Shown piece after piece: positions 7,813-34,586 of a DNA stretch of 41,602 nt. This DNA comes from a virus: IMG/VR virus record IMGVR_UViG_3300026488_000034, positions 1 through 41,602 of that record. One strand, 5' to 3'. The translations under genes were made by a program, and so were the position numbers. The notes beneath the pieces were generated by a model. That model was not told the origin of the DNA, did no database searches, and worked only from the letters and a program-made list of their open reading frames with translations. The first letter of the stretch is position 1, and each line of letters opens with the position of its first letter.

Positions 7813-8481
7813 TGGAAGGGTTTCAAAATAGTTAATCTAATATTACCCATATAAAATTAGTAAAGCTATCATATATCAAGAAAACAATGTCTCAAACAGT
7901 CTTCAAGTAACACACAAAAACTTTGCTTAGCCTTACATCATACAAAGAAGAGTCTAAAATGCTTAATCATCATGCTAACAGAATCTTCTAAAACAAAATC
8001 ACGAAAACGTTTCGAAATAGTTAATCTAATATTAGCTATATAAAATTAGTAATGCTTACTATACTTGAGAATCAAAAAAAAAAACAAAGCTTTATAGTCA
8101 GCTATATCTTATCTTTGTAACTTCAATGAACCTTCAAATAGTATGGTGAATCATACAGGAAGAGTTTCATTAAAACGGAATTACTATGAGCTATATAAAA
8201 TTAGTAAAGCTAACTTAACACAAAAGCAAATGGATCTAACATACTTCTGTTGACCCAATAGTTGAAGCTAATAAAGACATTTTGCTTATGTAGAAAGAGT
8301 TTCAAAGTAGGTAATCTTCAACATAGCTTATGTAAACTAGATGCTTATCAATGAATAACCATCTAGCAAAGCTTCTCCAATCCTGTATTGTATGAATAGC
8401 TTGATTGATTTGTTTATCTATTGAGTGGAAACGTTTCAAAATAGTTAATCTAATATTATCTATATAAAATTAGTAAAGCTA
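7813..8481 (-). repeat. Array of five 56-bp repeats (iteron-like)
   Basis: Copies lie at 7813-7868, 8002-8057, 8157-8212, 8291-8347 and 8426-8481, spaced 133-191 bp. Copies 1, 2 and 5 are nearly identical over the full length. Copies 3 and 4 keep the ends but diverge inside. On the plus strand the repeat starts with a GGAAACGTTTC-type palindrome, continues TAGTTAATCTAATATTA and ends TATAAAATTAGTAAAGCTA. The unit is AT-rich apart from the palindrome. Spacers are unlike each other and much longer than CRISPR spacers. The array could be replication iterons, a set of regulator sites, or promoters pointing along the minus strand. Confidence 0.85.
8337..8366. repeat. 7-bp inverted repeat beside array copy 4
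   Basis: CTAGATG (8337-8343) and CATCTAG (8360-8366) pair around a 16-base AT-rich loop at the end of the fourth repeat. It is the clearest inverted repeat inside the gap. Its role is unknown. Confidence 0.4.
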
Positions 8482-8672
8482 TCTATTATCTGAAAACAAA
8501 ATGGACAACAAGAAACATAGATACCTTGCTTACTTCTATATGCAAAAAAGAATTCAAATAGCTTAAAGAATCTTTAATCGAAATGATAGACAGCTTCTTT
8601 GAATGCATGAGAATTCTAAAAGAATCGAATATGCAAATAACTGTGCTATACGCATATCTAGTTTAGCAATGT

Positions 8673-10445
8673 CTAAATCTTATAGCTTCTAAAGAATCGT
8701 CTTATAGCATCAAGAATGAATCTCACATTGTCAAAAAGGATTCTATAGAAAAGTTTCTTTCTAGTTTTCTTGTAGCGTAATGCAAGATCTTTAAATCTCC
8801 TTATATCAACAATTTTGAGTATGTTAAAAGCTTTATAGATCTTTTGTTGTTTGAAGTACCTTATAACCTCATTGTAAGCATTAAGAAATTTAGCATAGCG
8901 ATTTAGCTTATTCTGGCCAAATAAAAGCCAATCATGTATAGCTTCTGTGAAAAGTCTTCTAAACTCCTCATAATTTGAAAGGATTTGAAACATAAGCAAT
9001 GTGCATAAAAGAGCACCACTCTTGAATCTGAATTCTTCATCTTCTGGTTTGAATTCTATATCGTTCTTTCCTTTAAGAATTGAGTAGAATTGGTATAAGA
9101 TCACATCTCCATTGTCAAGATCAATCATGAACCTTTTAAATAAGTTTTCTGCATTGCTTTTGGATATTGTGAATGAAACTTTCCTTGATGATTCGTGAAT
9201 GAATTCAAAAATATCAGATTTTCTGAGTAACTTCAAAGCTCTGTTGATTACTTTGCTATCAAGACCATTTTGTTTATTCCACATATATTTCAGTAGTTTA
9301 GCAATTTCGGATTTTGAATTAAACGTAACTGTAAAAGTATCAGAATCAATATCTGTAACCTTTTGTCCAAAGTAAGCAAGCACAAGCATAAGGATTGTGA
9401 TACCTTGTGCAACTTCTTCAACAAAGATTCTTGATTTTTCTGTGATTCCTTTTCTTCTAACTATGATATAACCATCTTTTGTTGTTTGTTGAATTGTGGT
9501 AAGATCAACATCTTCACCTGTGACTTCTTTAACAAGTTTTCTGAACTTTGTGTATCCTGGTAAGAATCCTGTGTATGTTTTTGCATACTTAACAGGATCA
9601 AGCCTTTTTGAAGATTCTTCATCTGTTCTTGGAACATACTGCTGGATGACTTTTGCAATTTGATCATAATCAAGATTTGTGTAACGCTTTAGAAGGCCAG
9701 TAGCAATCATACAAATATCCTGTCTGCGGCCTTCCTGATATACGGGTTCACTAAAGAGAATTCTTAAACCTTTGTGAATGTCATACTTTCTTGTGAACCC
9801 TTTAGCTTTCTTCTTTGTTTGGTAGTTTAGAGTTGCAACAAGCTTATACTTTATAAGCTTTTGTTTGATGTCTTCTATAACTCTATCGTATGCTTGTTTG
9901 TGTAGAAGAATATGTGAAATGTCACGTTTTAGGTTAGATTGTTTGATTCTCTTATAAGTTTTTGAATCTTCATAGGATGCTTCAGAATCTATGTTAACTG
10001 GTATTCTGTATGTATGATTAATTGTTGATGCTGTAGCTTTGTCAGATTTCAGAAATTTGTTGAATGATTCATGAGCAATCTTTACGAGTGAATCATAAAC
10101 TAATGAGATTTGATGTCCATTTTCATCAACAACTCTAGAGATGAAATGTTGGAGAGTTTTGTTAAGATAGGAACTTTCAATAAGCATTGTTTCAAAGAAG
10201 TTGAAAGACAAACAAGGAATGATGTTTAAGAAGACATGAGCATGTCCATTTGTTTCATTGATGTCTATGTCAAGAAACTTATAAACTTCGTGTTGTGAAA
10301 GTGCTTTAAGAACACCATATGAGTTAAAATCAAGGTCTGCAGCAATTGATTCCCATATAGCTACAGACCTAGGTTTATCGATGTAAAGATTTGGAGTCAT
10401 AAGTTTTCCAATTTTTTGTGTTTTGTATGTTTTGGTGATTTTCAT
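8673..10445 (-). CDS. Candidate replication/DNA-binding protein (590 aa)
   Basis: I do not recognise this protein as a whole. Residues about 237-297 (EGRRQDICMIATGLLKRY, then DYDQIAKVIQQY, then DPVKYAKTY) resemble the small helical domain found at the C-terminus of plasmid and phage primases (PriCT). Residues about 375-420 (SEIAKLLKYMW, then SKVINRALKLLRKSDIFEF) look like a winged helix-turn-helix. The ends are strongly basic, which suits DNA binding. No zinc-finger, Toprim or Walker motif is visible. A strong ribosome binding site (AAAGGAGG) precedes the ATG, and the leader holds a hairpin. It lies directly beside the 56-bp repeat array, as initiators often do beside their iterons. Initiator function is inference; a transcription factor is the alternative. 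Confidence 0.6.
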   Translation of the reverse strand: MKITKTYKTQKIGKLMTPNLYIDKPRSVAIWESIAADLDFNSYGVLKALSQHEVYKFLDIDINETNGHAHVFLNIIPCLSFNFFETMLIESSYLNKTLQHFISRVVDENGHQISLVYDSLVKIAHESFNKFLKSDKATASTINHTYRIPVNIDSEASYEDSKTYKRIKQSNLKRDISHILLHKQAYDRVIEDIKQKLIKYKLVATLNYQTKKKAKGFTRKYDIHKGLRILFSEPVYQEGRRQDICMIATGLLKRYTNLDYDQIAKVIQQYVPRTDEESSKRLDPVKYAKTYTGFLPGYTKFRKLVKEVTGEDVDLTTIQQTTKDGYIIVRRKGITEKSRIFVEEVAQGITILMLVLAYFGQKVTDIDSDTFTVTFNSKSEIAKLLKYMWNKQNGLDSKVINRALKLLRKSDIFEFIHESSRKVSFTISKSNAENLFKRFMIDLDNGDVILYQFYSILKGKNDIEFKPEDEEFRFKSGALLCTLLMFQILSNYEEFRRLFTEAIHDWLLFGQNKLNRYAKFLNAYNEVIRYFKQQKIYKAFNILKIVDIRRFKDLALRYKKTRKKLFYRILFDNVRFILDAIRRFFRSYKI

Positions 10446-10473
10446 GTTTCTTTACCTCCTTTGTTTTTTGTTT

Positions 10474-10507
10474 TTGGGGTTGGGTCCAAAGATGGGCCTG
10501 ACCCCAA
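10474..10507 (-). promoter_or_regulatory. Leader hairpin of the 590-aa gene
   Basis: TTGGGGT (10474-10480) pairs with ACCCCAA (10501-10507). After a 2x2 mismatch, GGTCC pairs with GGGCC (one G-U). On the minus strand it is followed by A-rich sequence and then AAAGGAGG of the 590-aa gene. It lies in the 5' leader, not after a stop codon, so control of translation or mRNA stability is likely. Confidence 0.45.
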
Positions 10508-10722
10508 CTACTAATTCGATACAATCTCTATTGGTGTAGACCAGCCTTGTAAACTCGTTATCTTTCCCAACCTTGTTAGAATTAGCTTTCAAACTTTCCT
10601 GGAAACGACCCCAAATCTTTACAATTGTTTGCTATTAGTTTGTTCTAAACTCTACTTCTTAAATGTTGCTTTGTTAATGTTAGTTATTAAAGAAAGTTTC
10701 ATGAAAAAATTTAGTAGTTTTA

Positions 10723-10754
10723 TGGGTCTAGGATCAACTTAGATCCTAGACCCA
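10723..10754 (-). terminator. 13-bp perfect hairpin after the 288-aa gene
   Basis: Arms TGGGTCTAGGATC (10723-10735) and GATCCTAGACCCA (10742-10754) pair perfectly with a 6-base loop. It starts 9 bases after the stop codon. The minus strand continues TAAAACTACTAAATTTTTTC, so a U-rich stretch exists but is 14 bases away. A terminator is likely. Confidence 0.6.
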
Positions 10755-10763
10755 ACATCTTTG

Positions 10764-11630
10764 TTAGAAAAGTGGTGGTAATTCATCTGAACCAAACAAG
10801 TCAAACATAGAACGAAAATCATCACTTAATGCTTCAGATAACGGATCTTCAATGTTATTCATTGGAAATAGAGTTTTATTAAGCTCTTTGAATTCTTTAT
10901 ACCAACGATCTAGCAATACAAACTTAAAGATTACTCCATCTAATAGCTCCAGAAGAAATGCTAATTCATTATACATACCTTCATACTTATTTGTCCAACT
11001 TCCTTTTTGAACTTCATAGTAATTGAGGAATTCTGGGATAAGAAGCACAACCAAGCTTTCTATAACATTAGGACTATCTTCATACAAATCAGTTATTGCA
11101 GATGCAAACTGCTCATCAAATCTTTGATCATCCCAAAGTCTTTGTCCAATCATAAATGACAGAATATCATTGACAGTCCAAACCAATCTTGTAAATTCTT
11201 CTGGATCATGATAGCAAGGATAAACATGTAATGCTAAAGTGGCTACTCTTGCCTCCCAAAAAGGATGCTCAGGTATTGTTAAATCATCTATAATTTCATC
11301 AGGTTGTGGTTTTTCTCCTGATAGGATTTTATTGATCTGTTTCAATGTGAAAGGTTTCATTCTACCTTTATGCTCGATTAAACTAATAAGGTGATCAACA
11401 TCTTCACTTTTAATTTGAATCTTTTCACCGTCTACTGTAAAGAATCCACTAGCTTTTTTAGCAACATCAAATGCTTGTTTCTTCCAATCTTTACCTATAA
11501 GTTTCCTCCATGTAGGTTCATGGAAACTATCAATTGTAATAGTTTCTAGGTTTTCTTGTTTGAAAGAATGATAGAATTTCTTAGTTGCTGTCTCACAAAC
11601 TAGAAGTACTAAAGCTTTCTTAGGTTTCAT
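10764..11630 (-). CDS. Hypothetical acidic protein (288 aa)
   Basis: I do not recognise this protein. It starts with KPKKALVLLVCETATKKFYH, a short hydrophobic strand that could open an alpha/beta fold. The C-terminal half is helical and acidic and ends in a Phe/Leu-rich acidic tail (DDFRSMFDLFGSDELPPLF). No signal or membrane segment is visible. Two ATG codons in a row follow AAAGGAGG; the second (11630) has the better spacing. It lies between the PAAR gene and the 590-aa gene and is bounded downstream by a strong hairpin. The acidic C-terminal tail ending in Phe resembles, in style only, partner-recruiting tails such as those of single-strand binding proteins. Confidence 0.65.
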   Translation of the reverse strand: MKPKKALVLLVCETATKKFYHSFKQENLETITIDSFHEPTWRKLIGKDWKKQAFDVAKKASGFFTVDGEKIQIKSEDVDHLISLIEHKGRMKPFTLKQINKILSGEKPQPDEIIDDLTIPEHPFWEARVATLALHVYPCYHDPEEFTRLVWTVNDILSFMIGQRLWDDQRFDEQFASAITDLYEDSPNVIESLVVLLIPEFLNYYEVQKGSWTNKYEGMYNELAFLLELLDGVIFKFVLLDRWYKEFKELNKTLFPMNNIEDPLSEALSDDFRSMFDLFGSDELPPLF

Positions 11631-11654
11631 CATAGCCTCCTTTTCCTCGTTAAG

Positions 11655-11954
11655 TTAACCATTAACAAAAACATTTGCGCTTGATGATACTATTACCCCT
11701 TTAGGACAACCACTGACAATATCACCAAGTCTTGCACAACCAATTCCGTTTACTAAAACATTAGGACTGCATGATACTATTATAGCTGTATGACCACATG
11801 ATGCTATACCGATAGCACTGCAGAATGATACGTTTATACCGTTTGCAAATACATTTGCAGAACCTGACACAATTACACCAGAAACATCTTCACATCCTGA
11901 ATGACAACAACAAATAGCTTTAAATACATCACCAATTCTTGCTACACCAGGCAT
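11655..11954 (-). CDS. PAAR-repeat spike-tip protein
   Basis: The 99-residue protein shows the PAAR pattern: short Gly-rich beta turns with SGSANVFANG, SCSPNVLVNG, GCARLGDIVSGCPKG and SSSANVFVNG. PAAR proteins form the sharp cone at the end of a contractile tail spike and bind a metal ion. Nine Cys and one His-rich spot (AICCCHSGC) are present, more than I expect for the family. The true start is ATG 11954 behind GGAGG at 8 bases; the ORF upstream of it runs through the terminator of the preceding gene. It is about 7.4 kb from the spike gene at 19381-20454, with which it should assemble. Confidence 0.88.
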   Translation of the reverse strand: MPGVARIGDVFKAICCCHSGCEDVSGVIVSGSANVFANGINVSFCSAIGIASCGHTAIIVSCSPNVLVNGIGCARLGDIVSGCPKGVIVSSSANVFVNG

Positions 11955-11982
11955 TTCATAATCCTCCGAAAAAAAAAAATGA

Positions 11983-12018
11983 TTGGTGGATGGATCAATT
12001 CTATGGTCCATCCACCAA
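11983..12018 (-). terminator. Rho-independent terminator with 11-base U-tract
   Basis: Arms TTGGTGGATGGA (11983-11994) and TCCATCCACCAA (12007-12018) form a 12-bp stem after the stop of the 63-aa gene. On the minus strand the stem is followed by TCA and eleven T. It is the only hairpin here with a full textbook U-tract. The PAAR ribosome binding site follows immediately, so some read-through or a separate promoter is needed. Confidence 0.75.
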
Positions 12019-12023
12019 CAATA

Positions 12024-12215
12024 TTACATGCAAGACTTCACGCGGTCTTTAATAGCTTTGAATTGTTCTTCAGTTACAGTAAGAGTGTATGCTTGACCAT
12101 TTGCATAAAGAAAATCTATTCGATTGTAAACTTCATAGAATTTGATGGATAACACATTATCTAAGTTAATGAAAGTTTCTGTGTTCTCATCTTCAATTGA
12201 AAGAAACTCCGCCAT
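12024..12215 (-). CDS. Small hypothetical protein (63 aa)
   Basis: An acidic 63-residue protein beginning MAEFLSIEDEN. AGGAGG at suitable spacing supports the ATG. The middle (TFINLDNVLSIKFYEV) looks like beta strands, and the end is a short helix (EEQFKAIKDRVKSC). I do not recognise the family. It lies between a tail-associated repeat protein and the PAAR tip gene, and its stop is followed by a true terminator. A small virion or chaperone role is possible but unsupported. Confidence 0.65.
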   Translation of the reverse strand: MAEFLSIEDENTETFINLDNVLSIKFYEVYNRIDFLYANGQAYTLTVTEEQFKAIKDRVKSCM

Positions 12216-12236
12216 GTTACCTCCTCGAACTCCTTC

Positions 12237-12719
12237 TTAGCCAAATATTAATGCTTTGATTAGAGCTTCTTTCTGTATCCTCTTATTATCCCAAACGTAG
12301 CCTGGATTATCCTTCTCACTATTGTTGAATAATACAGACACTTTATTTCCATCTACTTTGATCGTTTTACCATCGCCTGTGATTGAAACTGTTGATGATC
12401 CACCAGATATTTCTTGCCATGAACCTGAGATATAAGCATAAAGCTTCAACGTGTCATTTTTCAACCAGATTAAACCATCATAAGGATTAGATGGTTCTGT
12501 AGTTCCAATGAAAACATTAGGATCAAGTGCTGTAACCTCTTTCCAAGTTGATCCATCATACCTTAATACTTTTGGTGGTTGTTTGGATGTATCTATCCAT
12601 AAATCACCAACACTAGCATCTGTAGGAGGTGTAGATTGTACATAAGTAGGAGTTACTGGTTTAGATGCTGTTGAAGAACTTTTGGTCTCCATATAGATTA
12701 CATGAGATACATTCTTCAT
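12237..12719 (-). CDS. Tail-associated protein with GDLWID/GLIWL repeats
   Basis: The 160-residue protein has a Ser/Thr-rich N-terminus. Two copies follow of a motif common in phage tail fibre and tail tip proteins: DASVGDLWIDTS then YDGSTWKEV, and NPYDGLIWLKND then ISGSWQEI. A Gly-rich beta segment (VSITGDGKTIKVDGNKVSV) and a helical end follow. It is probably a small fibre or adaptor on the virion. GAGG lies 9 bases before the ATG; an internal Met10 is an alternative start. It sits near PAAR, which agrees with a tail-tip location. No chaperone is seen beside it. Confidence 0.7.
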   Translation of the reverse strand: MKNVSHVIYMETKSSSTASKPVTPTYVQSTPPTDASVGDLWIDTSKQPPKVLRYDGSTWKEVTALDPNVFIGTTEPSNPYDGLIWLKNDTLKLYAYISGSWQEISGGSSTVSITGDGKTIKVDGNKVSVLFNNSEKDNPGYVWDNKRIQKEALIKALIFG

Positions 12720-12741
12720 AGGTTATGACCTCTATTGTTGT

Positions 12742-13692
12742 TTAGAATATCCATTCAATAGAGTTCTGAATTCTCTGTTGTTGATGAGCAAAACCATCTT
12801 TTGAGCATATCTTTTGATATGGACAAAACCCACATTCATCTCTCTTAATGATTTGTAACCTGTTGGGTGGAATATCTGGTACTTGTTTCTTTTCGATTGC
12901 ATTAAGAATAGTTTCATACATCCAAAGTATATCGTTTTTGTAAGTTTCCCATAATTTAACAGGATCAGCTGTGAAAATCTTGAATGGTAAGTCTCTTGTA
13001 CCATCTGGTAATTTGAGAGGTTTGAAATCTCTCTTTAAATACATTAACTGTACACTATCACATTGTTTACCTAGCAATTCTGTCCAAACCCAGTAATAGG
13101 TAGCTAACTGTTTCCAATGAGGAATTTTGCCATAGAACTGTTTGTCATGTATTTCATCACCTATAGTTTTGATTTCTAGAATGATAGTTTTATCTTCGTT
13201 TGTTTTATATACTAGATCAATGTAGCCTTTAAGTTTCTTTTCTGGAATTTCGAATTTTACTTCCGATTGCACATCTTTGTATACTTTTGCAAGTAATGAT
13301 TGAACCCATTCATGTACAGCATTACCAACATGAGTAATGATTTCACTATAAGGATAGAATAGTTGTAATTCATAATCAGCATTTGTGAATCTATAGTAAA
13401 CTTTTCTTGGACAAAGATTGCATATATCAGTAGGAGAAATCCATTTCTTTTGGTAAGACATAGATACCTTCTGATTCTTTTTGTATTCTTCTTTAAGCAA
13501 ACTTAGAAATACATCAGAGTTTAGTTCAACATCAAGATTTCCTGTAGAAATTCTACCAGATTGTTTCCTAGTAACACTATCTTTTTGAGAAGATATAATA
13601 GTTTCAGATTTAACAATCTTTTTCTTGGAAGTTGTTGGCTGAGGAGCATCTTGTGGTAGTTTAGCTTTTACAAGAAGATCTGCGAAATCCAT
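12742..13692 (-). CDS. Cas4/RecB-like PD-(D/E)XK nuclease with Fe-S cysteines
   Basis: The 316-residue protein has all parts of the Cas4/AddB-type nuclease: Cys91/Cys94 in ICNLCPRKVYY, His127 in VGNAVHEWV, Asp159 in KGYIDLVY, E173-x-K175 in ILEIKTIG, a Gln/Tyr motif in WKQLATYYW, and the C-terminal cysteines C287, C290 and C296 in CGFCPYQKIC. The cysteines should hold a 4Fe-4S cluster. Such phage enzymes resect DNA ends for recombination. The start is ATG 13692 behind AAAGGAGG; the longer reading frame runs through a hairpin. Residues 1-60 are a low-complexity Lys/Ser linker. No cas1 or CRISPR is nearby, so a link with the RecA-like gene is the simplest reading. Confidence 0.88.
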   Translation of the reverse strand: MDFADLLVKAKLPQDAPQPTTSKKKIVKSETIISSQKDSVTRKQSGRISTGNLDVELNSDVFLSLLKEEYKKNQKVSMSYQKKWISPTDICNLCPRKVYYRFTNADYELQLFYPYSEIITHVGNAVHEWVQSLLAKVYKDVQSEVKFEIPEKKLKGYIDLVYKTNEDKTIILEIKTIGDEIHDKQFYGKIPHWKQLATYYWVWTELLGKQCDSVQLMYLKRDFKPLKLPDGTRDLPFKIFTADPVKLWETYKNDILWMYETILNAIEKKQVPDIPPNRLQIIKRDECGFCPYQKICSKDGFAHQQQRIQNSIEWIF

Positions 13693-13723
13693 ATCAGCCT
13701 CCTTTTTGAGTGAAAAGTGGTTC

Positions 13724-13759
13724 GGGTCTAGTCCGATATAAATGAATAGGACTAGACCC
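13724..13759 (-). terminator. 11-bp perfect hairpin upstream of the Cas4-like gene
   Basis: Arms GGGTCTAGTCC (13724-13734) and GGACTAGACCC (13749-13759) pair perfectly. It lies 11 bases after the stop of the 150-aa gene and 31 bases before the next start. No U-tract follows on the minus strand. It is a probable terminator or processing site. Confidence 0.55.
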
Positions 13760-13770
13760 TTCATCCATAG

Positions 13771-14223
13771 TTATGCAACATAACCTTTAATATGCTTAAG
13801 GGATGCCTGCCTTCTTTTGTAAGCACCGACAACACCTTCTACAAGTTTTTTAGCAGCATCTTCATTGAAAGCTATTCTTGTTGCTTCATATATCAAAGCT
13901 ATATCAATATAAAGATCTACTTTCTCTTCAATATTAGTCTCATTACCAACTTTTCCAGCGATAATTTTCTTAAGATTTTCTGACTTAATCTTGAGTGATG
14001 TCTTTGCTATATCAATGAAATTTGATATGATATCCTTGTTAAACATGCTTGTACTTTCTGTGAGTAGATTTACTGTTTCTTGGTCTTTAATGATGGACTC
14101 TAACACAGCTTTGTGATCATCTTTAAGCATATACTTGAATGTTGATTTGTTTACAACTTTAAGATGTTTAGAAAGTTCATCAATAAGAGATTGGTAACTT
14201 TCAGCAATATTACGCAATTTCAT
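13771..14223 (-). CDS. Small helical hypothetical protein (150 aa)
   Basis: An almost wholly helical, Lys-rich protein with no membrane segment. The start MKLRNIAESY follows GAGGAGG, placing it within the last codons of the previous gene (13-base overlap), so translation is coupled. The end is basic (YKRRQASLKHIKGYVA). I do not recognise the family. It forms a pair with the 263-aa gene; the two helical proteins may act together. Its stop is followed by a strong hairpin. Confidence 0.68.
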   Translation of the reverse strand: MKLRNIAESYQSLIDELSKHLKVVNKSTFKYMLKDDHKAVLESIIKDQETVNLLTESTSMFNKDIISNFIDIAKTSLKIKSENLKKIIAGKVGNETNIEEKVDLYIDIALIYEATRIAFNEDAAKKLVEGVVGAYKRRQASLKHIKGYVA

Positions 14224-15001
14224 TAGCAACAGCCTCCTCGGCAAAGAGATACTCATATTTTGCAAGATCTGGTGATGAAAATCTAATGATAGGATTATCA
14301 ATACCAAGTAACTCTTTGATTTCTTTCACCATATTAAGGCCAGTTTTGAATATAACTGTGATTGTACTTGCTCCTACTACAATAGATTTATCGCCATATA
14401 AACAACGATCTAATGATATGATTTCAAGTGTAGTATATTGCATCCATAGAGTGATTTCTTGAGCAATCTTCTGAATTTGATTGAATGCATCAATTTCACT
14501 ATTAATAGGAGTAGATACAATTGCTGACAACCTTTCATAGAAAGTATTGTAGGTTTTATCATGCAACTTCAAGAAGTAGTCAATCAATTCACCATATTCA
14601 CCGAATTCATGTTGTTTCTTTCTAAGCATATCTTCATAAAGTTGTTTAGCACATTTCGTAAGATCTAAAACAATGCTTGGAAAATTTCCGTTAATGCTTT
14701 TATCTAGCAAGTAGAATCTATATAAAGCAGATAAAGTTTCTAACCAAGCTTTCCAAACTAGAAACTTAGTATCAAGCACAAAGAATGTAATAGCTTTGTA
14801 AGTATAAGGTGATGCAATCATTTCAACCACAAGGTCACTGTAAACATGTAATAATGTTGTAAGAAATCGATAGCTTGTAGATGCTAAACGATATACATCA
14901 ACATTAGGAATCTTTTCTTGCAACTGTTCAAGATTTCCAATAGCAAACGTAAGTTGTGATTTCAATGCTTTTTGTAGATTAGTTTTTATGTATTCTATCA
15001 T
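14210..15001 (-). CDS. Helical hypothetical protein (263 aa)
   Basis: I do not recognise this protein. It is mainly helical, rich in Leu, Tyr and Phe, without a clear signal peptide. A hydrophobic patch near residues 66-110 (AITFFVLDTKFLVWKAW) looks amphipathic more than membrane-spanning. AAAGGAGG lies about 12 bases before the ATG, a slightly long spacing. It overlaps the 150-aa gene by 13 bases and follows the 87-aa membrane protein by two bases. The three form a small coupled group of unknown role between the RecA-like and Cas4-like genes. Confidence 0.68.
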   Translation of the reverse strand: MIEYIKTNLQKALKSQLTFAIGNLEQLQEKIPNVDVYRLASTSYRFLTTLLHVYSDLVVEMIASPYTYKAITFFVLDTKFLVWKAWLETLSALYRFYLLDKSINGNFPSIVLDLTKCAKQLYEDMLRKKQHEFGEYGELIDYFLKLHDKTYNTFYERLSAIVSTPINSEIDAFNQIQKIAQEITLWMQYTTLEIISLDRCLYGDKSIVVGASTITVIFKTGLNMVKEIKELLGIDNPIIRFSSPDLAKYEYLFAEEAVANEIA

Positions 15002-15003
15002 TG

Positions 15004-15267: not shown

Positions 15268-15335
15268 ATCACACACCTCTTCATATTAAGTACTGATGTA
15301 TGTTCGTTTTCTTTCAGTTCGGAAAATAGAAAAAT

Positions 15336-15365
15336 GGGACAAAGCCCACCTAAGAGCTTTGTCCC
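15336..15365 (-). terminator. Hairpin overlapping the end of the recombinase gene
   Basis: Arms GGGACAAAGC (15336-15345) and GCTTTGTCCC (15356-15365) pair perfectly, and the stop codon at 15350-15352 lies in the loop. On the minus strand the stem is followed by ATTTTTCTATTTTCC, a fair U-rich tail. It is a likely intrinsic terminator built into the 3' end of the gene. Confidence 0.68.
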
Positions 15366-16456: not shown

Positions 16457-16460
16457 CTAC

Positions 16461-20468: not shown

Positions 20469-21542
20469 TTATGCTGTTGCCTCTTTGCTTTCTTTATCAG
20501 AAGATTCTGGATTTTCTTTAGGTTGTTGCTCTACATTAACCTCTTTCCCAAATAGTTTGTTAATTACTGGATCAACTTTTGTATCATAGTATTCTTTTAG
20601 TTTTTTAAACAATGGACTATAAGGTGTATCTTCATTAGAAAGTTTCTTAAGTAATTGTCCACCTGATAACTCATCAAGAACCTTTATACCAACAGCTAGA
20701 AGAGTTGCAACACCAGCTATCTTAAAGATAGTAGAAATTATTCTTGATATTGCTGTACCTAGTTGTTCCTGAAGCACCACATAATCTTTTGCTGTATAAC
20801 TTTCATTTTTGCTAAACAATCCAGAAATAGCTGTAACTATTGCTCTTATCTTTGCATATGTAAACTTTAGTCCTTTATACATTGAAAGGAAGAATCTTGT
20901 GGCTCTCGATAATTCATTATGCTTTTCAGCTTGTTGTATTACTCTATTTATAAAGTCTTTTGCTTGTTGTTTAAACGGTAAATAGAAACTTTGAATTGCT
21001 TTATGTAACTCTTCATTTCTTATGAGAGCAAAACCAATATCCATAAATGCTATACCAGCAGAAAGCATTACGAGTATTCCAAATCCACCAAGATTAGGTT
21101 TGGTACAGATTAAACGTGTTGCTCTTTCACCAATCATTAAAGTTACACGTCCTAGTATAGTAGCAATAACACCTTCTTTGAGAAACTGCTCTGTTGATGC
21201 GTTCTCACAACCTTTATTTCTTAAGAAGTGTATCACTCTTGATCCAGCAAGAAGATGTACTGAACCAATAAACATGAATGTCAGACCTATTCTATCCAGA
21301 ACTCCAAGTTTGACTTCGTCGCTAGAATCACCAAGAAGTTTAGCCCCTCTTGCTAAAGATATAAGAGCCTTCAACCTAGAAGCAAATGAACCACTAGAAA
21401 TATCAGCAAGTCGAATTTCATTATCTGCATTTTCTCGTATTGCATTAACCAAGTCTTTATATCGTTCATTGAGATTTGAAAACAAAGCAAAGTTGTTTTT
21501 AGTTACCAAATCTTGTATAACATCTTTGAATGTGATAGCCAT
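20469..21542 (-). CDS. Multi-pass membrane protein beside the spike gene (357 aa)
   Basis: Hydrophobic segments are seen near residues 84-101, 122-138, 151-174 and 268-288, separated by basic loops. The C-terminus is an acidic, Pro/Ser/Glu-rich tail (NPESSDKESKEATA). It is expressed from one of the four conserved promoter-like elements (21551-21602), whose end includes its GAGG ribosome binding site. It lies just upstream of the spike gene. I do not recognise the family. A membrane protein with its own late-type promoter inside a tail block is notable; options are a virion-borne membrane protein delivered with DNA, or an assembly factor anchored in the host membrane. Confidence 0.7.
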   Translation of the reverse strand: MAITFKDVIQDLVTKNNFALFSNLNERYKDLVNAIRENADNEIRLADISSGSFASRLKALISLARGAKLLGDSSDEVKLGVLDRIGLTFMFIGSVHLLAGSRVIHFLRNKGCENASTEQFLKEGVIATILGRVTLMIGERATRLICTKPNLGGFGILVMLSAGIAFMDIGFALIRNEELHKAIQSFYLPFKQQAKDFINRVIQQAEKHNELSRATRFFLSMYKGLKFTYAKIRAIVTAISGLFSKNESYTAKDYVVLQEQLGTAISRIISTIFKIAGVATLLAVGIKVLDELSGGQLLKKLSNEDTPYSPLFKKLKEYYDTKVDPVINKLFGKEVNVEQQPKENPESSDKESKEATA

Positions 21543-21550: not shown

Positions 21551-21602
21551 CCTCGGAAGCGTTTCATTTTGTAATAAAGTTGTATATGGTTATAAGGTTA
21601 GG
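21551..21602 (-). promoter_or_regulatory. Conserved promoter-like element P1
   Basis: On the minus strand it reads CCTAACCTTATAACC, then a TATACAACTTTATTACA block, then AAAATGAAACGCTTCC, running into the ribosome binding site of the membrane protein gene. It is a near-copy of elements at 28508, 33024 and 34536. I read it as a phage-specific promoter plus leader. Promoter activity is inferred from conservation and placement ahead of genes. Confidence 0.7.
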
Positions 21603-21611
21603 ATTCTAGTA

Positions 21612-27655: not shown

Positions 27656-27661
27656 GACTTT

Positions 27662-28015: not shown

Positions 28016-28497
28016 TAGAGTACTCTCCCTACTTGTTTAACTTGTATGAAGTTATAATCTACGGTTTGTAAATTAGGTTTGCAATATTTTAAGGTTAAAT
28101 ACAGAGCAGTATTAAGTATTTTTGAACCATCTTTGAAATCTTCAAATGATTGAATTATTCGATCTTTAGGAGGGGATTGTATATAGAAAGGTATCTTAAG
28201 CTCTAGAGATGGGAAGAATCTATTAATGTGAGTTAACGCTTCTTTTCTTAGTGTAAATTCTGGATCGTTGATGATAATGAAATCATCATTATTCTCGAAG
28301 TATTGACGTATTGTATAGTATGCTAGTCCTAAATCGACGATCTGTTTTTCAAAATTATCGAACCAAACATTCAACACCAGAAAATTCAAGATGTGTTGTT
28401 TAATACGATGATCAAGATCTAGTTCTTGGAACAATTCAACTTGTAGATTTTCAAGATGTACATAAGGATGTATCAGGGTTTGAACGAAGTACCTCAT
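28015..28497 (-). CDS. Hypothetical protein, gp25/wedge-sized (160 aa)
   Basis: The protein has 160 residues from MRYFVQTLIH. An upstream in-frame ATG (28524) lies inside promoter-like element P2 (AAAATGAAAC), and the ribosome binding site GAGG fits the second ATG, so the longer form is probably an annotation trap. The sequence has a helical start (LENLQVELFQELDLDHRIKQ), a Phe-rich middle and a beta end. Size and position directly ahead of other baseplate genes recall small wedge proteins such as gp25, but the gp25 motif E-P-R is not seen. It is the first gene after P2. Function is unassigned. Confidence 0.66.
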   Translation of the reverse strand: MRYFVQTLIHPYVHLENLQVELFQELDLDHRIKQHILNFLVLNVWFDNFEKQIVDLGLAYYTIRQYFENNDDFIIINDPEFTLRKEALTHINRFFPSLELKIPFYIQSPPKDRIIQSFEDFKDGSKILNTALYLTLKYCKPNLQTVDYNFIQVKQVGRVL

Positions 28498-28507
28498 ATT
28501 GGAGAAT

Positions 28508-28570
28508 CCTCGGAAGAGTTTCATTTTGTAATAAAGTTGTATATGATTATAAGGTTAGGTTTGGTTAGGT
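28508..28570 (-). promoter_or_regulatory. Conserved promoter-like element P2
   Basis: It carries the same blocks as P1 (CCTAACCTTATAATC, TATACAACTTTATTACA, then AAAATGAAACTCTTCC), preceded by an extra CCTAACCAAA. The stop codon of the 704-aa gene is just inside its 5' edge. The leader up to the ATG at 28497 also resembles that of P1. It probably drives the operon from 28497 down. Confidence 0.7.
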
Positions 28571-30679
28571 ATGGATAATCGATAACATTATTCTTCTGTA
28601 ATCCTCTTTATGTAGCATATCTTCGTTAATCTTGTTATGCATAATGTAATTTGTCTTAAGATGTATTGGAAATTCTGTTGTATTGATAGCATGGTATCTC
28701 AAAATATCAAGATTGATTGTACCTATAAGTATGTGTTCCATTAGTTTGTATTCTTTGTATAGATCAATTATAGGAAAGATTACATACGACACAGAATCCA
28801 ATTCAACAAGCTTAAGATAGAAATGACCTATGTATGCATGCTCTAATTGATGATAAAACTTCTTTAATTCAAACTTAAGTTTATTGAAAAATGCATTTTC
28901 AAATTGTCCATAATAATTGTCAAAACCCTGGAGAAAATCTAGATTTCCAGCTAATGTATCAAACAGTAGCTGTGTATTTCCTGCAAAGTTATAAAGTACG
29001 TTTATAATAGCTTGTTTAACTTCGTATTTAGGATCATTGAAATCAATATAGCTTTTGTACCTACTAATAGCATCTGAAAACGTGTTTTGAAGTACTTTTG
29101 TGAGATAAATGCTATCACCATTTGCAAGATTATCTAGTTCATGGGAAATATCTATACCTTCTCGTGCTTTAAGAAAAGCTTGGGTAATCTTAGGAATACT
29201 AGATTGTGCATGCTGATATAAAACAACATACACAGCGCTGTTAATCGTTTGCTCTAATTCTTCAATGGCTGGTAAGTTGTATTTGTTTCTTAATTCAGCT
29301 ATCAACGGTTGAGTAAGAACTGTAAAGCTTGTTGCAAGTGTATCTACAACTATTTTGTATACGTTATTGTAGATTTCAAAGAACCAATCTTCAGCTTGAT
29401 ATTTCTCAATATCCTTGAGTAACTGTTTATCAATGTAGTTTAATAGATCATCTCGAATAAACGACAACCATACATCCTTATTTGGTACGTCGTAGTTATA
29501 TGAAACGTCGTCAAGTATATAATCATCGATATTAACACTATCAAAGTTAGAAAGTTTCTGTATAGCTTTTAAACTGTTATAGGTGAAACTGAAATCATCC
29601 TTAGAATGAATATCTTGTCCTTCGCAAATTGCTTGAAAAACGGGATATAATGCAGGATGAATATGCTTATCCTCCGTAGAATTACTAACAATCTGATTGA
29701 AGTAATCTTGTACTTTTGTTTTATCAAACCTTTTGAATTGCCATTCTGCTTCATTTTTAATCTTATTGTAATGATTTGTAAATACACTGTTAAAATCAAA
29801 TGATTCAATAACTGACTTTATATCAGAGGCATTAATCATCTGGTTTACTAAATCGATTAATGTTTTATGTAAGGCTATCTTTGCAAAGTATGAATACTCC
29901 CATGACTTATCAGAATTCAAAACGTCAAACAAGTAACGAATATAAGTTTGTATACTTGCAACAATCTTTTTAACTACAAGGAACTTTTTCAGTGAATCTT
30001 CATCGTATATATTGCTTTCAAATTTTGTCGCAATTAGTTTCTTAATGATATTATACCAAGTATCAGGAACTTGTAGATTAAGTGTATCCAATGTAATGTA
30101 CGAATCCAAAAAAACAAGCAAACTATAAAATACTGCGTTTGCTATATAAGATGATAAAGAAATCCAACTTGCTTGATAATCATGAAAATTAGCAATTGCG
30201 AAATCTATTGGTCTATATTGCATGTTATACATTATCGAAAATATTCCAACCTTATCACGATCTAATGAAGAACCTTTAGAAACACATTCATTAATAAGAG
30301 AACCTACAGTTTCTAGAGTTTGTTGATTCCATACGTTCGTGAAAAGTTGATCAATGATACAATCAATACATCCACCACATGATATAGGTATATTGTGTAA
30401 CAGAAGATCTTGCTCTAATACATTTCTCCAAAACATCTCTGTAAACTGGTATTCAAATTCGCGGAGATAAACAACAGAAGGTGCCAATAAAGCAGGCCCC
30501 TTCTGGTTGAAATTTGTCATCAAAGTTTTCATAGTTTCTGCTACTATCTGTTGTCTGTAAAGTTCTAGATATGTTTTATACTTTTCTTCATCAAATGTGA
30601 AGAAGAAACGATCTCTAAAATTCGACGGATTTGATACATAAGCATTGCTTATAAACTTGAATGAAAGCCTTTCTTTCAT
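28565..30679 (-). CDS. Large baseplate-type protein (704 aa), possibly gp7-like
   Basis: A long helical protein rich in Tyr, Phe and Asn. A small Cys cluster (ISCGGCIDCII, about residues 98-108) could bind a metal. No enzymatic motif is visible. AAAGGAGA lies 6 bases before the ATG. In contractile-tail clusters the gene after the gp6/J-type protein usually encodes its wedge partner (gp7/gpI). This gene follows the gp6-like gene by 12 bases, so wedge function is the simplest guess. Sequence similarity to known gp7 is not apparent to me. Confidence 0.68.
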   Translation of the reverse strand: MKERLSFKFISNAYVSNPSNFRDRFFFTFDEEKYKTYLELYRQQIVAETMKTLMTNFNQKGPALLAPSVVYLREFEYQFTEMFWRNVLEQDLLLHNIPISCGGCIDCIIDQLFTNVWNQQTLETVGSLINECVSKGSSLDRDKVGIFSIMYNMQYRPIDFAIANFHDYQASWISLSSYIANAVFYSLLVFLDSYITLDTLNLQVPDTWYNIIKKLIATKFESNIYDEDSLKKFLVVKKIVASIQTYIRYLFDVLNSDKSWEYSYFAKIALHKTLIDLVNQMINASDIKSVIESFDFNSVFTNHYNKIKNEAEWQFKRFDKTKVQDYFNQIVSNSTEDKHIHPALYPVFQAICEGQDIHSKDDFSFTYNSLKAIQKLSNFDSVNIDDYILDDVSYNYDVPNKDVWLSFIRDDLLNYIDKQLLKDIEKYQAEDWFFEIYNNVYKIVVDTLATSFTVLTQPLIAELRNKYNLPAIEELEQTINSAVYVVLYQHAQSSIPKITQAFLKAREGIDISHELDNLANGDSIYLTKVLQNTFSDAISRYKSYIDFNDPKYEVKQAIINVLYNFAGNTQLLFDTLAGNLDFLQGFDNYYGQFENAFFNKLKFELKKFYHQLEHAYIGHFYLKLVELDSVSYVIFPIIDLYKEYKLMEHILIGTINLDILRYHAINTTEFPIHLKTNYIMHNKINEDMLHKEDYRRIMLSIIHT

Positions 30680-30691
30680 TTCGTATCTCCT

Positions 30692-33004
30692 TTAAACATA
30701 AATAACTTCAACTTCTGGTTCTTGTAAACCAATGACTTCAGGCACAAATGTTAGAACCTGGTCTTTTGGAATATCGTAAGAATCTACATGAATACTTATA
30801 TCTTCTTCTGTAAGTTTTCCGTTTCTGTCTACTATGTAAACTTCTACATCTTTTAGATAATCAAGATTATCATAAAGTAGTTTCACAATTGTGCTTCTAA
30901 TAATATCTACGTCAAATCCAGGACGTATGAACGACGTTACAAGTTTCTTAATTCTTTGTTGTATAGTAGTAGCAGCTTCTAGTGTATGTACGTAAACTCT
31001 GATATACAATTTAACAGGAGTTTCAAATTGGCCAGGTTTTGCGGAATTGAGAGGAGATCTTGATAGCTTGGTATTCATTAATAAACCAGCTGTTTTACCG
31101 AAAGCTATTGCAACTTTATTAGTTAGCATTTTTCTTTCTTCAATATAAGATACACCTGATACGTAAAGCTGATTAAGGTGATCGATAATATCTTCAATGT
31201 ATTCTATAACAGGAACACCGTAGATTACGTACTTTTTGTCTTCGAATTTCACTTTGATTGGGGTATAGGCTGAAACGTTATACTTCACATAGAATGGTGA
31301 TAGCTCTACATAGTTTATCGTTTCATAATCAGTTTGTGTTGCGTATTTATACCTGAAAGTAATTCGTCCCGTAATAAAATCCTCTGTTAAATCGTCAGGT
31401 AAATTAACATCAACAGTCAGAATATTGCTTACCGTATCGAATGAAGCTTTATTGTATGAAAGATTGTAACTTTTTCCCGATTGCGTAAGATTTACTTCAA
31501 CTTGGATGTTGTCTTCAGGACTCATAAATTCGTTAACATTTAGAAGATATTTAAGTCTTAGTTTTGGTTGTTTATCATCTTTATCATACACAAATAAGGC
31601 TTGGTTTAGTTTTGCATATGATTGATGATCCACAGAGTAATAGCTTTCTTGAACAACTTTGAAATTTATGTTTGACATATGAGGATAATAGTAAACAACA
31701 CCAACCATTGTATCCGTATTGATATCTATCTCAAATGGTACTACAAACTCTAATGCATTATCATTCTCTTTAGTTTCCGATAGATCAACACATTCAAGGT
31801 TATTTTGATAAACAGTTGTAAACTGCTTGATTTTAACACTTTCTGTTGTAAGCTTACCTGTTAAACTTTTGACAAGTTTTCCTTTATAGGTAAAGAATCC
31901 AAACATGCATATTTCGTTTACAAATAAATCAGAGATTGTAAAAATTGTTTTTACATCCTGAAAGGGAAGCTTATCCTTTGCTAAAAATTCGAAATCTTTG
32001 TGGGTAACCAATCTATCGTTTTTATGAAGTTGTTTGATTGCATTCAGTCTTATATCATTTGGATTCTCTGCATCTTGTCCATTAAGAATATCTGGATGAT
32101 GTACTATGACGTTTAATGGATTTCCAGTAGCTTTGTTTGTTATAGATTGCTTAAGGCTTAATGTATTTGCATATACATTACCTTTAGAACCAAGAGATAT
32201 AAGCAATTCAGCTGTAATTGTTTCACCTGGATTTAGACTCTTTCCAATTAAACCATTACCGAAAATAAGTTGATAGCTATCAGCTGCTTCAAGCAATACA
32301 AATGAATATCTATCACGATCTAATTCAAACAAGAATGATTTTCTTTCTGCAGGAACACCAGAAACATAAACGTTAATATCACTTAGTTGTCCTTCTGTTG
32401 GAAATGGAATTGTATACGTTGGAAACTTGTAGTTTACTACATCAGAGGGACTTACAATGAAGGATAAGATTTCTCTTTTTGCTTGTATTACTGGAAGTTG
32501 AAAATGTATCACATTGTAATACGTATCATCTTTGCTTATTACTTCATAAGTATAAGGAAGTACGAATTTATTACCAGTAATATCATAAGCAATTATGTTT
32601 GCAATGTTTGTGTACTTTGAATATGTGATATAAACCTTGTATTGTGGAATATAAGTAATATCGTCATTAGTTTGAAATTCCGTGTTATAGTCTATTACAG
32701 CATCAATATTAGTAGAATTATCATAAGCTATGTATAAATCTACGTAACCTGTAGCGGGTTGGACTGTTTTGTATTTGTAACCATAATCTATAGCAAATTT
32801 TTTGATTGTACTTGGTAATATTGCTGTTGATAGAAAAGATTCATTCATAAGCAACGAAAGATACATAAGTTGATTTTCATCAAGAATGCTTAAAGTTTGC
32901 ACCAACCAAGTTTCGAGATTGGGATTATCAAAGTCAATTTGGAATCCAAATTTTGATTTGAATTCATTCAACAATGTTTGCAATATTTGATCTCTTGAAA
33001 TCAA
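30692..33004 (-). CDS. Baseplate wedge protein (gp6 / gpJ family)
   Basis: The 770-residue protein shows hallmarks of the Baseplate_J family. FGNGLIGKSLNPGETITAEL with SLGSKGNVYANTL (about residues 245-285) matches the F-G-N-G...G-G-x-x-G-N motif. A helix-rich part follows (DAENPNDIRLNAIKQLHK, then RLVTHKDFEFLAKD, about 310-345). The C-terminal region contains the helix-strand domain near 640-720. It forms the wedge ring that triggers sheath contraction. The start codon is TTG, 9 bases after GGAGG; no ATG fits. It lies directly after promoter-like element P3. The middle insertion (about 380-600) is larger than in small phages, typical of large ones. Confidence 0.88.
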   Translation of the reverse strand: MISRDQILQTLLNEFKSKFGFQIDFDNPNLETWLVQTLSILDENQLMYLSLLMNESFLSTAILPSTIKKFAIDYGYKYKTVQPATGYVDLYIAYDNSTNIDAVIDYNTEFQTNDDITYIPQYKVYITYSKYTNIANIIAYDITGNKFVLPYTYEVISKDDTYYNVIHFQLPVIQAKREILSFIVSPSDVVNYKFPTYTIPFPTEGQLSDINVYVSGVPAERKSFLFELDRDRYSFVLLEAADSYQLIFGNGLIGKSLNPGETITAELLISLGSKGNVYANTLSLKQSITNKATGNPLNVIVHHPDILNGQDAENPNDIRLNAIKQLHKNDRLVTHKDFEFLAKDKLPFQDVKTIFTISDLFVNEICMFGFFTYKGKLVKSLTGKLTTESVKIKQFTTVYQNNLECVDLSETKENDNALEFVVPFEIDINTDTMVGVVYYYPHMSNINFKVVQESYYSVDHQSYAKLNQALFVYDKDDKQPKLRLKYLLNVNEFMSPEDNIQVEVNLTQSGKSYNLSYNKASFDTVSNILTVDVNLPDDLTEDFITGRITFRYKYATQTDYETINYVELSPFYVKYNVSAYTPIKVKFEDKKYVIYGVPVIEYIEDIIDHLNQLYVSGVSYIEERKMLTNKVAIAFGKTAGLLMNTKLSRSPLNSAKPGQFETPVKLYIRVYVHTLEAATTIQQRIKKLVTSFIRPGFDVDIIRSTIVKLLYDNLDYLKDVEVYIVDRNGKLTEEDISIHVDSYDIPKDQVLTFVPEVIGLQEPEVEVIYV

Positions 33005-33023
33005 AACTTTAAACCTCCATATC

Positions 33024-33075
33024 GCGGAAGCGTTTCAAAATGTAATAAAGTTGTATAAGGTTATAAGGTTAGGTT
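33024..33075 (-). promoter_or_regulatory. Conserved promoter-like element P3
   Basis: Minus-strand blocks CCTAACCTTATAACC, TATACAACTTTATTACA and TTTTGAAACGCTTCC match P4 almost exactly. The stop codon of the 253-aa gene lies in the first block. The ribosome binding site of the gp6-like gene is 15 bases downstream. It is the presumed promoter for the baseplate operon starting at 33004. Confidence 0.72.
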
Positions 33076-33830
33076 TGGTTATTGATACTTGTTTCAAGCT
33101 CAAGTAAGGTTTTGATGAATGCATCATATGCATAATCAGTTAATTCTTCGAGACCTATCTGTAAATCTTTCACAGACTTTTCATAAACTTTACTTAAACC
33201 ATACAAATTTGCTAGAGATTTTGTTAACGGTATAAACCTATCAGATTGAAATGTAGCATTAAGGACAACTATGTTATTTTGAGAAATATCTGGTTGGAAA
33301 TCAGCGTTGTTTAAAGATGTGATTGACGTACCATATGCTTTATAGATTAGTAATGAATCTGGATTATTCAAGAAGTTTTGCGGTAGAATATAGATCGTAA
33401 TTGTAGTTTTAGTCAACTCCAACCAAGACTCACCAAAATTCTTCTTCAACAAAGGTCTATATGTTGCTGGATTCAAAATACATGAATACCAAATACTTAG
33501 AATGTTGAATACATCAAATTGAACATTCTCATAAAACCTGATGGAAAATTCATGTCCAGTATCTTCTCCTATTGGAACCATTGTTTTTAGACCACGCCCA
33601 TGCTCTTTTGGTTCATATATAATCGTATTGGAAGGTAAGTCACTAGCTTGTGCATTTACAGCTAATACATATTCCAATTCTTCATAGTTAGTTACTATTC
33701 TCTTCACACATTCCGGAACGCGTATATGAATGAAAGTGTAACCTGAAACAAGAGGTACATTATCATATGTTATACTTTCAGTCTCACTTATATCAAATCC
33801 AGCTTTCTTTGTAATTACTTTGTCTATCAT
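33069..33830 (-). CDS. Tail-tube-fold paralogue (253 aa)
   Basis: The protein shares the weak signature of its three upstream neighbours: FIHIRVPE near the start, a strand-helix motif FSIRFYENVQFDVFNILSIW, and a late beta strand NIVVLNATFQSDRF. It is the most diverged of the four and has a helical C-terminal extension (about 205-253). In T4, gp48 and gp54 are tube-fold proteins that sit between baseplate and tube. A similar adaptor role is likely. GAGAGG precedes the ATG. It lies between the main tube gene and the gp6-like gene, where such adaptors are expected. Confidence 0.65.
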   Translation of the reverse strand: MIDKVITKKAGFDISETESITYDNVPLVSGYTFIHIRVPECVKRIVTNYEELEYVLAVNAQASDLPSNTIIYEPKEHGRGLKTMVPIGEDTGHEFSIRFYENVQFDVFNILSIWYSCILNPATYRPLLKKNFGESWLELTKTTITIYILPQNFLNNPDSLLIYKAYGTSITSLNNADFQPDISQNNIVVLNATFQSDRFIPLTKSLANLYGLSKVYEKSVKDLQIGLEELTDYAYDAFIKTLLELETSINNQT

Positions 33831-33857
33831 ATATGCATCCTCTCTAAAACAATGTTA

Positions 33858-33890
33858 AAGGCAAGGGACCAGAATTTGATCCCTTGCCTT
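33858..33890 (-). terminator. 11-bp hairpin after the main tail-tube gene
   Basis: Arms AAGGCAAGGGA (33858-33868) and TCCCTTGCCTT (33880-33890) pair perfectly. It starts 4 bases after the stop codon of the tube gene. The minus strand continues TAACATTGTTTTAG, without a compact U-tract. Together with P4 it frames the tube gene as a single-gene unit. Confidence 0.62.
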
Positions 33891-33894
33891 GTTT

Positions 33895-34509
33895 CTAGAA
33901 GTCAACTTCTTCTATTTCTTGAATATATTTCTTAACTTTTGCAGGATCCATCTTACAGATTAAGTCAAATTTAAATGTGACATCAACTTCAGCAATTGCA
34001 ACATCGTTAACATCTGCACCGATAGCATTAAGAGGATTTGTTGTAGGCCAGACACCTAAGAATGTGACTCCAAATGGTGCATACTTTCCACTTGGTGATG
34101 TAATGATTAGATCAAGAGTTCCCTTATAATTAGAAGATCTTAGTTCAACTTGTGCAAGTCCTGTTGAATAACTCCTTATAGTATCATGCCACTTTCCAAT
34201 AGCTTTGATTACTCTGAGTTCATAAGTATCTCTTAATCTTACAGGAAGGTCGTTTCCTAAACTAAGTTGTCCAGGATGCAGTGTTCTTAGTCCACCTAGA
34301 CCAATTGCTTCAAGCTCTGTAATAGTTGGTGTCGGAAGAGTTACAGCTAAAACTGTTCTTGGAAACAAATCTTCAAAGTCTGATAAATCAATCGATTCTG
34401 GTACTCTAATGAATGCAAAGAATGTACCTTTGATAAAAGGATCATATTGATAAGCATTTTCACATGTACCCGTAAGTCCATTTCTTAAGAAATCCTTAAG
34501 GCTTGCCAT
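33895..34509 (-). CDS. Tail tube protein (gp19-like)
   Basis: The 204-residue protein has the gp19-type layout. An N-terminal strand (FFAFIRVPESI) is followed by GGLRTLHPGQ, then VRLRDTYELRVIKAIGKW, then LDLIITSPSG, and the closing motif VTFLGVWPTTNPLNAIGAD with VDVTFKFDLICK. Such proteins stack as hexamers inside the sheath. It is the shortest and most regular of the four paralogues and is flanked by promoter-like element P4 and a strong hairpin, as expected for the most abundant tail protein. AGGAGG lies 10 bases before the ATG. It lies three genes after the sheath gene. Confidence 0.82.
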   Translation of the reverse strand: MASLKDFLRNGLTGTCENAYQYDPFIKGTFFAFIRVPESIDLSDFEDLFPRTVLAVTLPTPTITELEAIGLGGLRTLHPGQLSLGNDLPVRLRDTYELRVIKAIGKWHDTIRSYSTGLAQVELRSSNYKGTLDLIITSPSGKYAPFGVTFLGVWPTTNPLNAIGADVNDVAIAEVDVTFKFDLICKMDPAKVKKYIQEIEEVDF

Positions 34510-34535
34510 AAGCGAAGTTCCTCCTATTAAATAAG

Positions 34536-34586
34536 TGGAAACGTTTCAAAATGTAATAAAGTTGTATAAGGTTATTAGGTTAGGTT
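34536..34586 (-). promoter_or_regulatory. Conserved promoter-like element P4 (tube gene)
   Basis: Minus-strand blocks CCTAACCTAATAACC, TATACAACTTTATTACA and TTTTGAAACGTTTCC are shared with P3. The last block is the same as in array copy 5 at 8426. The element overlaps the stop codon of the 290-aa gene and ends 27 bases before the tube ATG. It likely gives strong late expression of the tube protein. Confidence 0.73.

Follow-up and report, generated by a model that had tools for sequence, protein, structure and literature searches.

The question raised by this locus is why one short sequence ends two otherwise unrelated kinds of intergenic element. The stretch analysed here (the window) is the IMG/VR record IMGVR_UViG_3300026488_000034, 41,602 nt (41.6 kb) of viral DNA. 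Nearly all of its long open reading frames (ORFs) are on the minus strand, and its gene set includes a tail sheath, a tail tube, a baseplate wedge, a PAAR protein, an OB-fold baseplate protein, a RecA-like ATPase and both ribonucleotide reductase subunits, small and large. When both strands were searched for GAAACNNTTYC, nine matches were found, all on the minus strand, four of them at the ends of the intergenic elements P1 to P4 and five at the ends of repeat units in a non-coding gap. A preliminary description, made from the letters alone, had reported this shared core, and its array positions agree with ours within 1 to 2 bases; the wording that it gave for the core, TTTTGAAACGYTTCC, is exact at three of the nine sites (8427, 33026 and 34537), the others having variants. 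In 200 Markov-1 sequences GAAACNNTTYC occurred on average 1.01 times and at most 6 times, and none reached nine, a comparison that is partly circular because the pattern had been loosened to fit these sites. The answer that we favour, and consider somewhat better than an even choice on the sequence evidence, is that P1 to P4 belong to a single class of phage promoter, with four members in the window and at least 15 in a related record, and that transcription begins at the G of GAAAC or close to it.

Because the window sites themselves had shaped the pattern, the better and independent test is the only relative that was retrieved, IMG/VR record IMGVR_UViG_3300026488_000246 (147,462 bp; hereafter G001), which is 83-96% identical to the window over the longer aligned stretches and has the opposite orientation. 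The strict core GAAACGYTTCC has 15 copies in G001, 14 in P-type elements and one in the array, and 13 of the 15 are intergenic under a mechanical ORF mask (p 1.5e-12); the backwards control has no copy in G001. The looser GAAACNNTTYC has 28 matches there, 15 in P elements, four in the array and nine elsewhere. It had been allowed that the core might be common by chance inside genes; this is not what was found, either in the window, which has no further copy, or for the strict core in G001.

The P elements of the window, with their cores and their orthologues in G001, are the following.

21555-21605, minus strand: P1, core 21555-21565; upstream box, TATACAACTTTATTACA, AAAT and core GAAACGCTTCC, then GAGG and the ATG of gene 20469-21542; orthologue at G001 53485, 4 of 51 places different
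28512-28562, minus strand: P2, core 28512-28522; same element type as P1, core GAAACTCTTCC; orthologue at G001 46349, 7 of 51 places different
33026-33076, minus strand: P3, core 33026-33036; before the baseplate-wedge gene 30692-33004; orthologue at G001 41829, 4 of 51 places different
34537-34587, minus strand: P4, core 34537-34547; before the tail-tube gene 33895-34509; orthologue at G001 40317, 5 of 51 places different

The P elements of G001, each given by the first G of GAAAC, are these.

Minus strand: 5331, 8020
Plus strand: 30773, 40317, 41829, 46349, 53485, 75806, 77284, 90719, 91116, 91511, 125412, 126716, 139279

Each of these 15 is followed by an ORF start on the same strand. Twelve match the 49-bp consensus ACCTAACCTWATAACCNTATACAACTTTATTACANNNTGAAACGYTTCC with few changes, and three of these 12, all of which served as seeds, have the variant middle TATAATTGTATACAACTAYATTACA in common. 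A 51-column matrix made from 15 seeds (12 from G001 and three from the window; 73.5 bits) found 17 places in G001 and the window with a lowest score of 46, two of them beyond the seeds (126716 and P2), and its maximum on ten 150-kb Markov sequences was -25. The modules are seldom alone in G001, with CTAACCWWATAA (12 of 12), ATTACANNNWGAAAC (12 of 12) and GAAACGYTTCC (14 of 15) lying inside P elements; short words are less specific, CCTAACC and TATACAAC each having 13 of 23 occurrences in P elements and the remainder elsewhere. A GAGG/GGAGG/AGGA-like site comes 0-12 nt past the core in 17 of the 19 places (15 in G001 and four in the window), the exceptions being at 20 and 63 nt. In P2 an ATG lies inside the element (28524) and is probably not the start of the downstream gene, for which the ATG at 28497 is the likely start judging from the sequence that follows it, MRYFVQTL, which matches MKYFVQSL in G001. 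The sequence, copy number, placement, orientation and conservation of the P elements are all direct observations.

The preliminary description had P1 to P4 standing before structural genes, which is right for P3 and P4; the genes after P1 and P2 have no PHROGs match. The term is also too narrow, as the genes downstream of the G001 elements include a part of RNA polymerase beta (5405-7936, with the element 73 nt upstream), a baseplate hub, a lipoprotein-like gene, two genes assigned by orthology (baseplate wedge and tail tube), and several others without a PHROGs match. Between the window and G001, the P copies differ mostly at columns that are variable among copies, and in three of the four orthologue pairs the triplet just ahead of the T or A next to GAAAC has switched as a block between AAA and TTT. 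Since such a switch by single mutations needs three steps, exchange between P copies within one genome is possible. Exchange of this kind, and the fact that copying would also yield long near-identical copies, would suit transposed repeats without a regulatory role, but the fixed place before genes and the lack of any terminal inverted repeats seen speak otherwise. Nor do the elements resemble host-type sigma-70 promoters: a scan for TTGACA, 16-18 nt and TATAAT gave 69 matches in place of the 82.6 expected, which is not above shuffles, and among the 60 listed of these 69, the other nine being weaker, none is in P1 to P4. We regard both of these explanations, transposed repeats and sigma-70 promoters, as very improbable.

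If P elements are promoters, their parts can be assigned as follows. With the G of GAAAC as +1, the upstream box ACCTAACCTWATAACC would lie at about -38 to -23 and the AT-rich block TATACAACTTTATTACA at about -21 to -5, which would put TTTATTAC around -10; three A or three T and then a T or A would follow. The core GAAACGYTTCC would then span approximately +1 to +11, with the ribosome-binding site next. The likely reader would be a multisubunit RNA polymerase encoded by the phage itself, or else an RNA polymerase combined with a specificity factor from the phage, and it would also transcribe its own beta gene. We infer the promoter role, where transcription starts, which polymerase reads the elements and whatever the array may do; the RNA polymerase genes themselves are seen directly in G001, where beta/beta' pieces match Pfam PF00562 (E 5e-37), PF04998 (E 6e-21) and PF04565 (E 1.5e-7), with PHROGs and PDB chains in agreement. 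By these pieces G001 shares with phages of the phiKZ/AR9 type the encoding of a multisubunit RNA polymerase. When the three polymerase pieces were searched against G001 only one set was found, and a Cobetia protein labelled sigma factor had no phmmer match (E up to 10) among the proteins called in G001.

The beta gene of G001 seems, from its sequence, to be split by a split intein over 5405-7936 and 2671-4719, both on the minus strand. An intein-like N part ends the first beta protein (it matches the gp41-1 intein chain 6qaz, E 1.1e-4) and an intein-like C part, ending LSHN/S, opens the second. The beta' piece at 11579-13963 also has an intein-like start (Pfam PF14890, E 0.0019, below the cut-off) before TVAVYMPLT, beside the catalytic site. 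A search of the open-licence PubMed Central (PMC) literature on split inteins in phage polymerases found nothing on polymerase beta, from which no absence in print is claimed.

The second setting of the core is the array in the gap, whose features are listed here with the two genes that flank it.

7739-8672: non-coding gap holding the array, 907 bp between called ORFs
8427-8482, minus strand: unit 1, core 8427-8437; AT block ACTAATTTTATATAGATAATATTAGATTAACTATTTT and core GAAACGTTTCC; kept in G001 at 66261
8293-8348, minus strand: unit 2, core 8293-8303; AT block almost absent, core GAAACTCTTTC; G001 66393
8158-8213, minus strand: unit 3, core 8158-8168; first half of the AT block, core GAAACTCTTCC; G001 66529
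8003-8058, minus strand: unit 4, core 8003-8013; full AT block, core GAAACGTTTTC; G001 66683
7814-7869, minus strand: unit 5, core 7814-7824; full AT block, core GAAACCCTTCC, which reads GAAGCTCTTCC in G001; the last unit before the nuclease gene, about 80 bp upstream of it
7220-7738, minus strand: gene that follows the array, a member of the PDDEXK endonuclease / RusA-like resolvase family (Pfam PF24608, E 1.1e-14; phrog_244, E 8.3e-12)
8673-10445, minus strand: gene before the array, 590 amino acids

The same array is present in the homologous gap of G001. Over the whole gap 824 of 893 positions are identical, with 56 gap columns, an identity about that of the third codon positions of three neighbouring genes (0.91-0.93). 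The five units (45 bp and core) differ at 10 of 280 places without an insertion or deletion, as against 64 of 638 places and 39 gap columns in the spacers (Fisher p 5.7e-4), and thus the repeat units are held while the spacers drift. The AT block ACTAATTTTATAT has four exact copies per record, all in the array. The units are less uniform than had been described, since the full block is present in three of them (8427, 8003 and 7814), about half of it at 8158 and hardly any at 8293, so that two of the five lack all or half of it. That two upstream types stand before one core was confirmed, the types being unrelated and always oriented with the downstream gene. As the same core ends both the P block and a different array block, it is probably read by a factor shared between the two element classes, going by the sequences. 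The position of unit 5 is roughly the one in which a promoter for the nuclease gene would be expected. The proposal of two promoter classes with one start region or factor is supported as far as the P elements are concerned, which resemble promoters (G001 has 15 copies, complete to varying degrees, before genes of the same strand); the array could be a further class of promoter that begins with the same sequence, a binding cluster for the factor that reads the core, or a source of decoy RNA.

A binding cluster would be expected if the core were an operator, that is, an 11-bp one-way site for a phage DNA-binding regulator that overlaps the P start in the manner of a stoperator, the gap sites serving the same protein for titration, auto-control or a nucleoprotein complex. 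The array shows that the core is separable from the upstream part, and all nine window cores lie on the coding strand and share the direction of the genes, the asymmetric and transcription-oriented character of cluster A stoperators, which are described as orientation-dependent (PMC9283540). Some core copies also contain the palindrome GAAACGTTTC, but it is broken in most P elements (GAAACGCTTC), the strict core in G001 is confined to P elements and the array, and no regulator was identified, integrase and repressor not having been sought systematically. We consider an operator rather unlikely. It is still less likely, and in our view improbable, that the core acts as RNA, in a 5'-leader read by an RNA-binding protein or nuclease with the transcribed gap as a five-site decoy. 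The core is always sense to transcription and, in 17 of the 19 places, is followed at once by the ribosome-binding site, and the array runs in the direction of the genes; against this, no 120-nt piece, including those from the gap, folded with z below -1.75, Rfam at gathering scores had no match in the window, gap included, and the conservation of P reaches about 38 bp upstream of the core, as expected of DNA.

The link between replication and late expression that had been suggested, with the array as an origin made of iterons and the core as the coupling element, is not supported and appears very unlikely. Direct repeats in an AT-rich gap would suit it, but the units are spaced by about 135-190 bp, a spacing unlike that of iterons, and the cumulative GC skew of G001 keeps rising through 66 kb without a turn at the gap. 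The gene before the array contains NGHxHVF, a weak motif resembling those of archaeo-eukaryotic primases (AEP), a likeness that searches did not support: the gene has no Pfam or PHROGs match, and its structure model (mean predicted local distance difference test score, pLDDT, 42) is too poor for a fold search. This gene belongs to a family of large proteins without known relatives, the G001 members at 64256-66028, 116858-118744 and 9460-11331 being 97%, 28% and 20% identical to it, the last two as its more distant paralogues.

Several observations weigh against the P elements being a promoter class read by the phage's own polymerase. In three of the 15 G001 copies (91116, 91511 and 126716) the middle is broken, with box and core kept. 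The array units lack the P upstream box, which is why the core is separable from it, and likewise lack TTTATTACA. None of the three G001 polymerase pieces is found in the window by tblastn. A DFDGD-type catalytic motif is absent from all frames of G001, which leaves the polymerase incomplete in this record, and the aspartate-triad part of beta' may lie outside it. A second polymerase, or a sigma-like or specificity factor, may have been missed in G001, because family-library searches covered 32 of its 183 called ORFs. Finally, the spacing TTTAT-N7-TG, seen in 7 of 15 G001 and all four window P elements, is weak evidence, as it is common in G001 (76 occurrences, 19 intergenic). With these points taken into account, the elements are real, functional-looking and new in sequence, and most likely form a phage promoter class, familiar in kind but in a lineage that is new; what is unusual is the core in a second setting. 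An extension that we put forward only tentatively is that a phage polymerase class reads its promoter over some 49 bp, the first 11 bases of the transcript among them, and that this transcribed core is a separable module also used by the second, unrelated upstream block of the conserved non-coding array. One phage would then have two promoter classes with a common signal for the start site or leader.

Another motif, CATTTATAT, is a second candidate promoter motif by its sequence and placement. It occurs at these positions.

G001, plus strand: 16403, 26590, 60962, 74620, 82202, 87899, 113021, 120074, 120159, 133461, 144685
Window, minus strand: 13744, 79

All 11 G001 copies are on the plus strand, nine are intergenic (p 1.4e-8), and each precedes a plus-strand ORF, by 50-137 bp in nine cases and by 305 and 892 bp in two. 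Seven copies continue as nnnA[CT]TG, and in one more the TG is equally far away; the copy at 60962 lies within the loop of an inverted repeat GGGTCTAGTCC/GGACTAGACCC. The P elements named above have the same TTTAT-N7-TG spacing, which, given how often it occurs alone, is only a hint of a common reader.

The P element is known from two records only, and near-identical records may escape the search. Among viral contigs, sheath, polymerase and gene-upstream-of-array queries each returned G001 alone, and the array motif was found in G001 only; GTDB genome contigs gave no element, and a TnpB query against genome contigs confirmed no relative. Other hits in viral contigs were rejected. TATACAACTTTATTACA is in 15 stretches, six from G001 and nine elsewhere without box or core; CTAACCNWATAAYYNTATACAA is in 10, nine from G001 and one a chance match, without an adjacent core, in a contig that carries T4-like tail genes; TTACANNNWGAAACGNTTCC is in 20, half of them from G001, and the box is missing from all 10 of the rest. 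Cobetia phage Carin-5 and Vibrio phage 1.031.O, both of which have beta' relatives, were scanned for repeated intergenic words, and TATACAACTTTATTACA with up to 3 mismatches was found at no place in the former and two in the latter. Vibrio phage 1.031.O carries over 30 copies of GCGCCCTAAC between genes in long inverted repeats (CCCGAAAGCGCCCTAAC...GTTAGGGCGCTTTCGGG), and for this structure they were rejected as P-like promoters. Apart from these, the window has a run of 12 C on the plus strand near the record end (about 9-20; G on minus) and strong GC-rich hairpins where genes end, most of them lacking a U run (33831-33894, 36177-36241, 5577-5745 and 10446-10763), and G001 encodes many small proteins with an FxTNSST-like motif near the N terminus (91143, 95574, 126737, 127212, 131645, 132061, 134254, 138463 and others).

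The P elements can be compared with several known systems. Like the core, cluster A mycobacteriophage stoperators are short, asymmetric, transcription-oriented and intergenic (PMC9283540), but here the core is joined to a block that looks like a promoter, and it has no known repressor. The start-associated sequences (SAS) and extended SAS (ESAS) of cluster K mycobacteriophages also have a short repeated core just before gene starts, and some SAS copies, as P does, are extended by a conserved stretch of about 46-50 bp that is believed to contain a promoter (PMC3203893, PMC11373665, PMC12699233); they differ in that SAS is GGGATAGGAGCCC at the ribosome-binding site and ESAS has 17-bp inverted repeats and sigma-A hexamers, and the P consensus has neither GGGATAGGAGCCC nor such inverted repeats, nor are the hexamers present. 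In P23-45, which uses two polymerases, a strongly conserved AT-rich motif serves one phage polymerase and a second motif the other (PMC10770324), a likeness to P at the level of motif layout; the P23-45 enzymes are single-subunit.

A further comparison is with the phages that have multisubunit polymerases, for which sequence analysis detects early promoters and not middle and late ones (PMC7598289). That a long and near-invariant motif stands before virion genes, and also before the beta gene of the polymerase itself, would make the promoter code of this unstudied lineage testable from sequence, and if two upstream types do share one core, this would give a handle on a promoter part that is read downstream of the start by the enzyme or a helper. 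A conserved intergenic promoter motif with a multisubunit polymerase had no match in the open-licence PMC literature, and absence in print is not claimed. The AR9 late (AACA-6N-TA/G) and phiKZ late (TATG) promoters are, like P, placed before virion genes, and neither motif is in the P consensus at the core G. The phiKZ/AR9-type early promoters differ from P, which is about 49 bp long and reaches into the putative transcribed region, stands before virion genes, has a spacing of 5 and not 6, and has another sequence. Beside the multisubunit RNA polymerase of the phage, what they would have in common, if transcription of P starts at the G of GAAAC, is the architecture of a highly conserved AT-rich block near -10, a few bases and a G start: the virion polymerases of these phages generally use blocks of this kind near -10 (PMC7598289), AR9 early promoters have the AT-rich AAATATATATTAT, 6N and then G (PMC5312081), and most P copies have the block TTTATTAC, five bases and then G.

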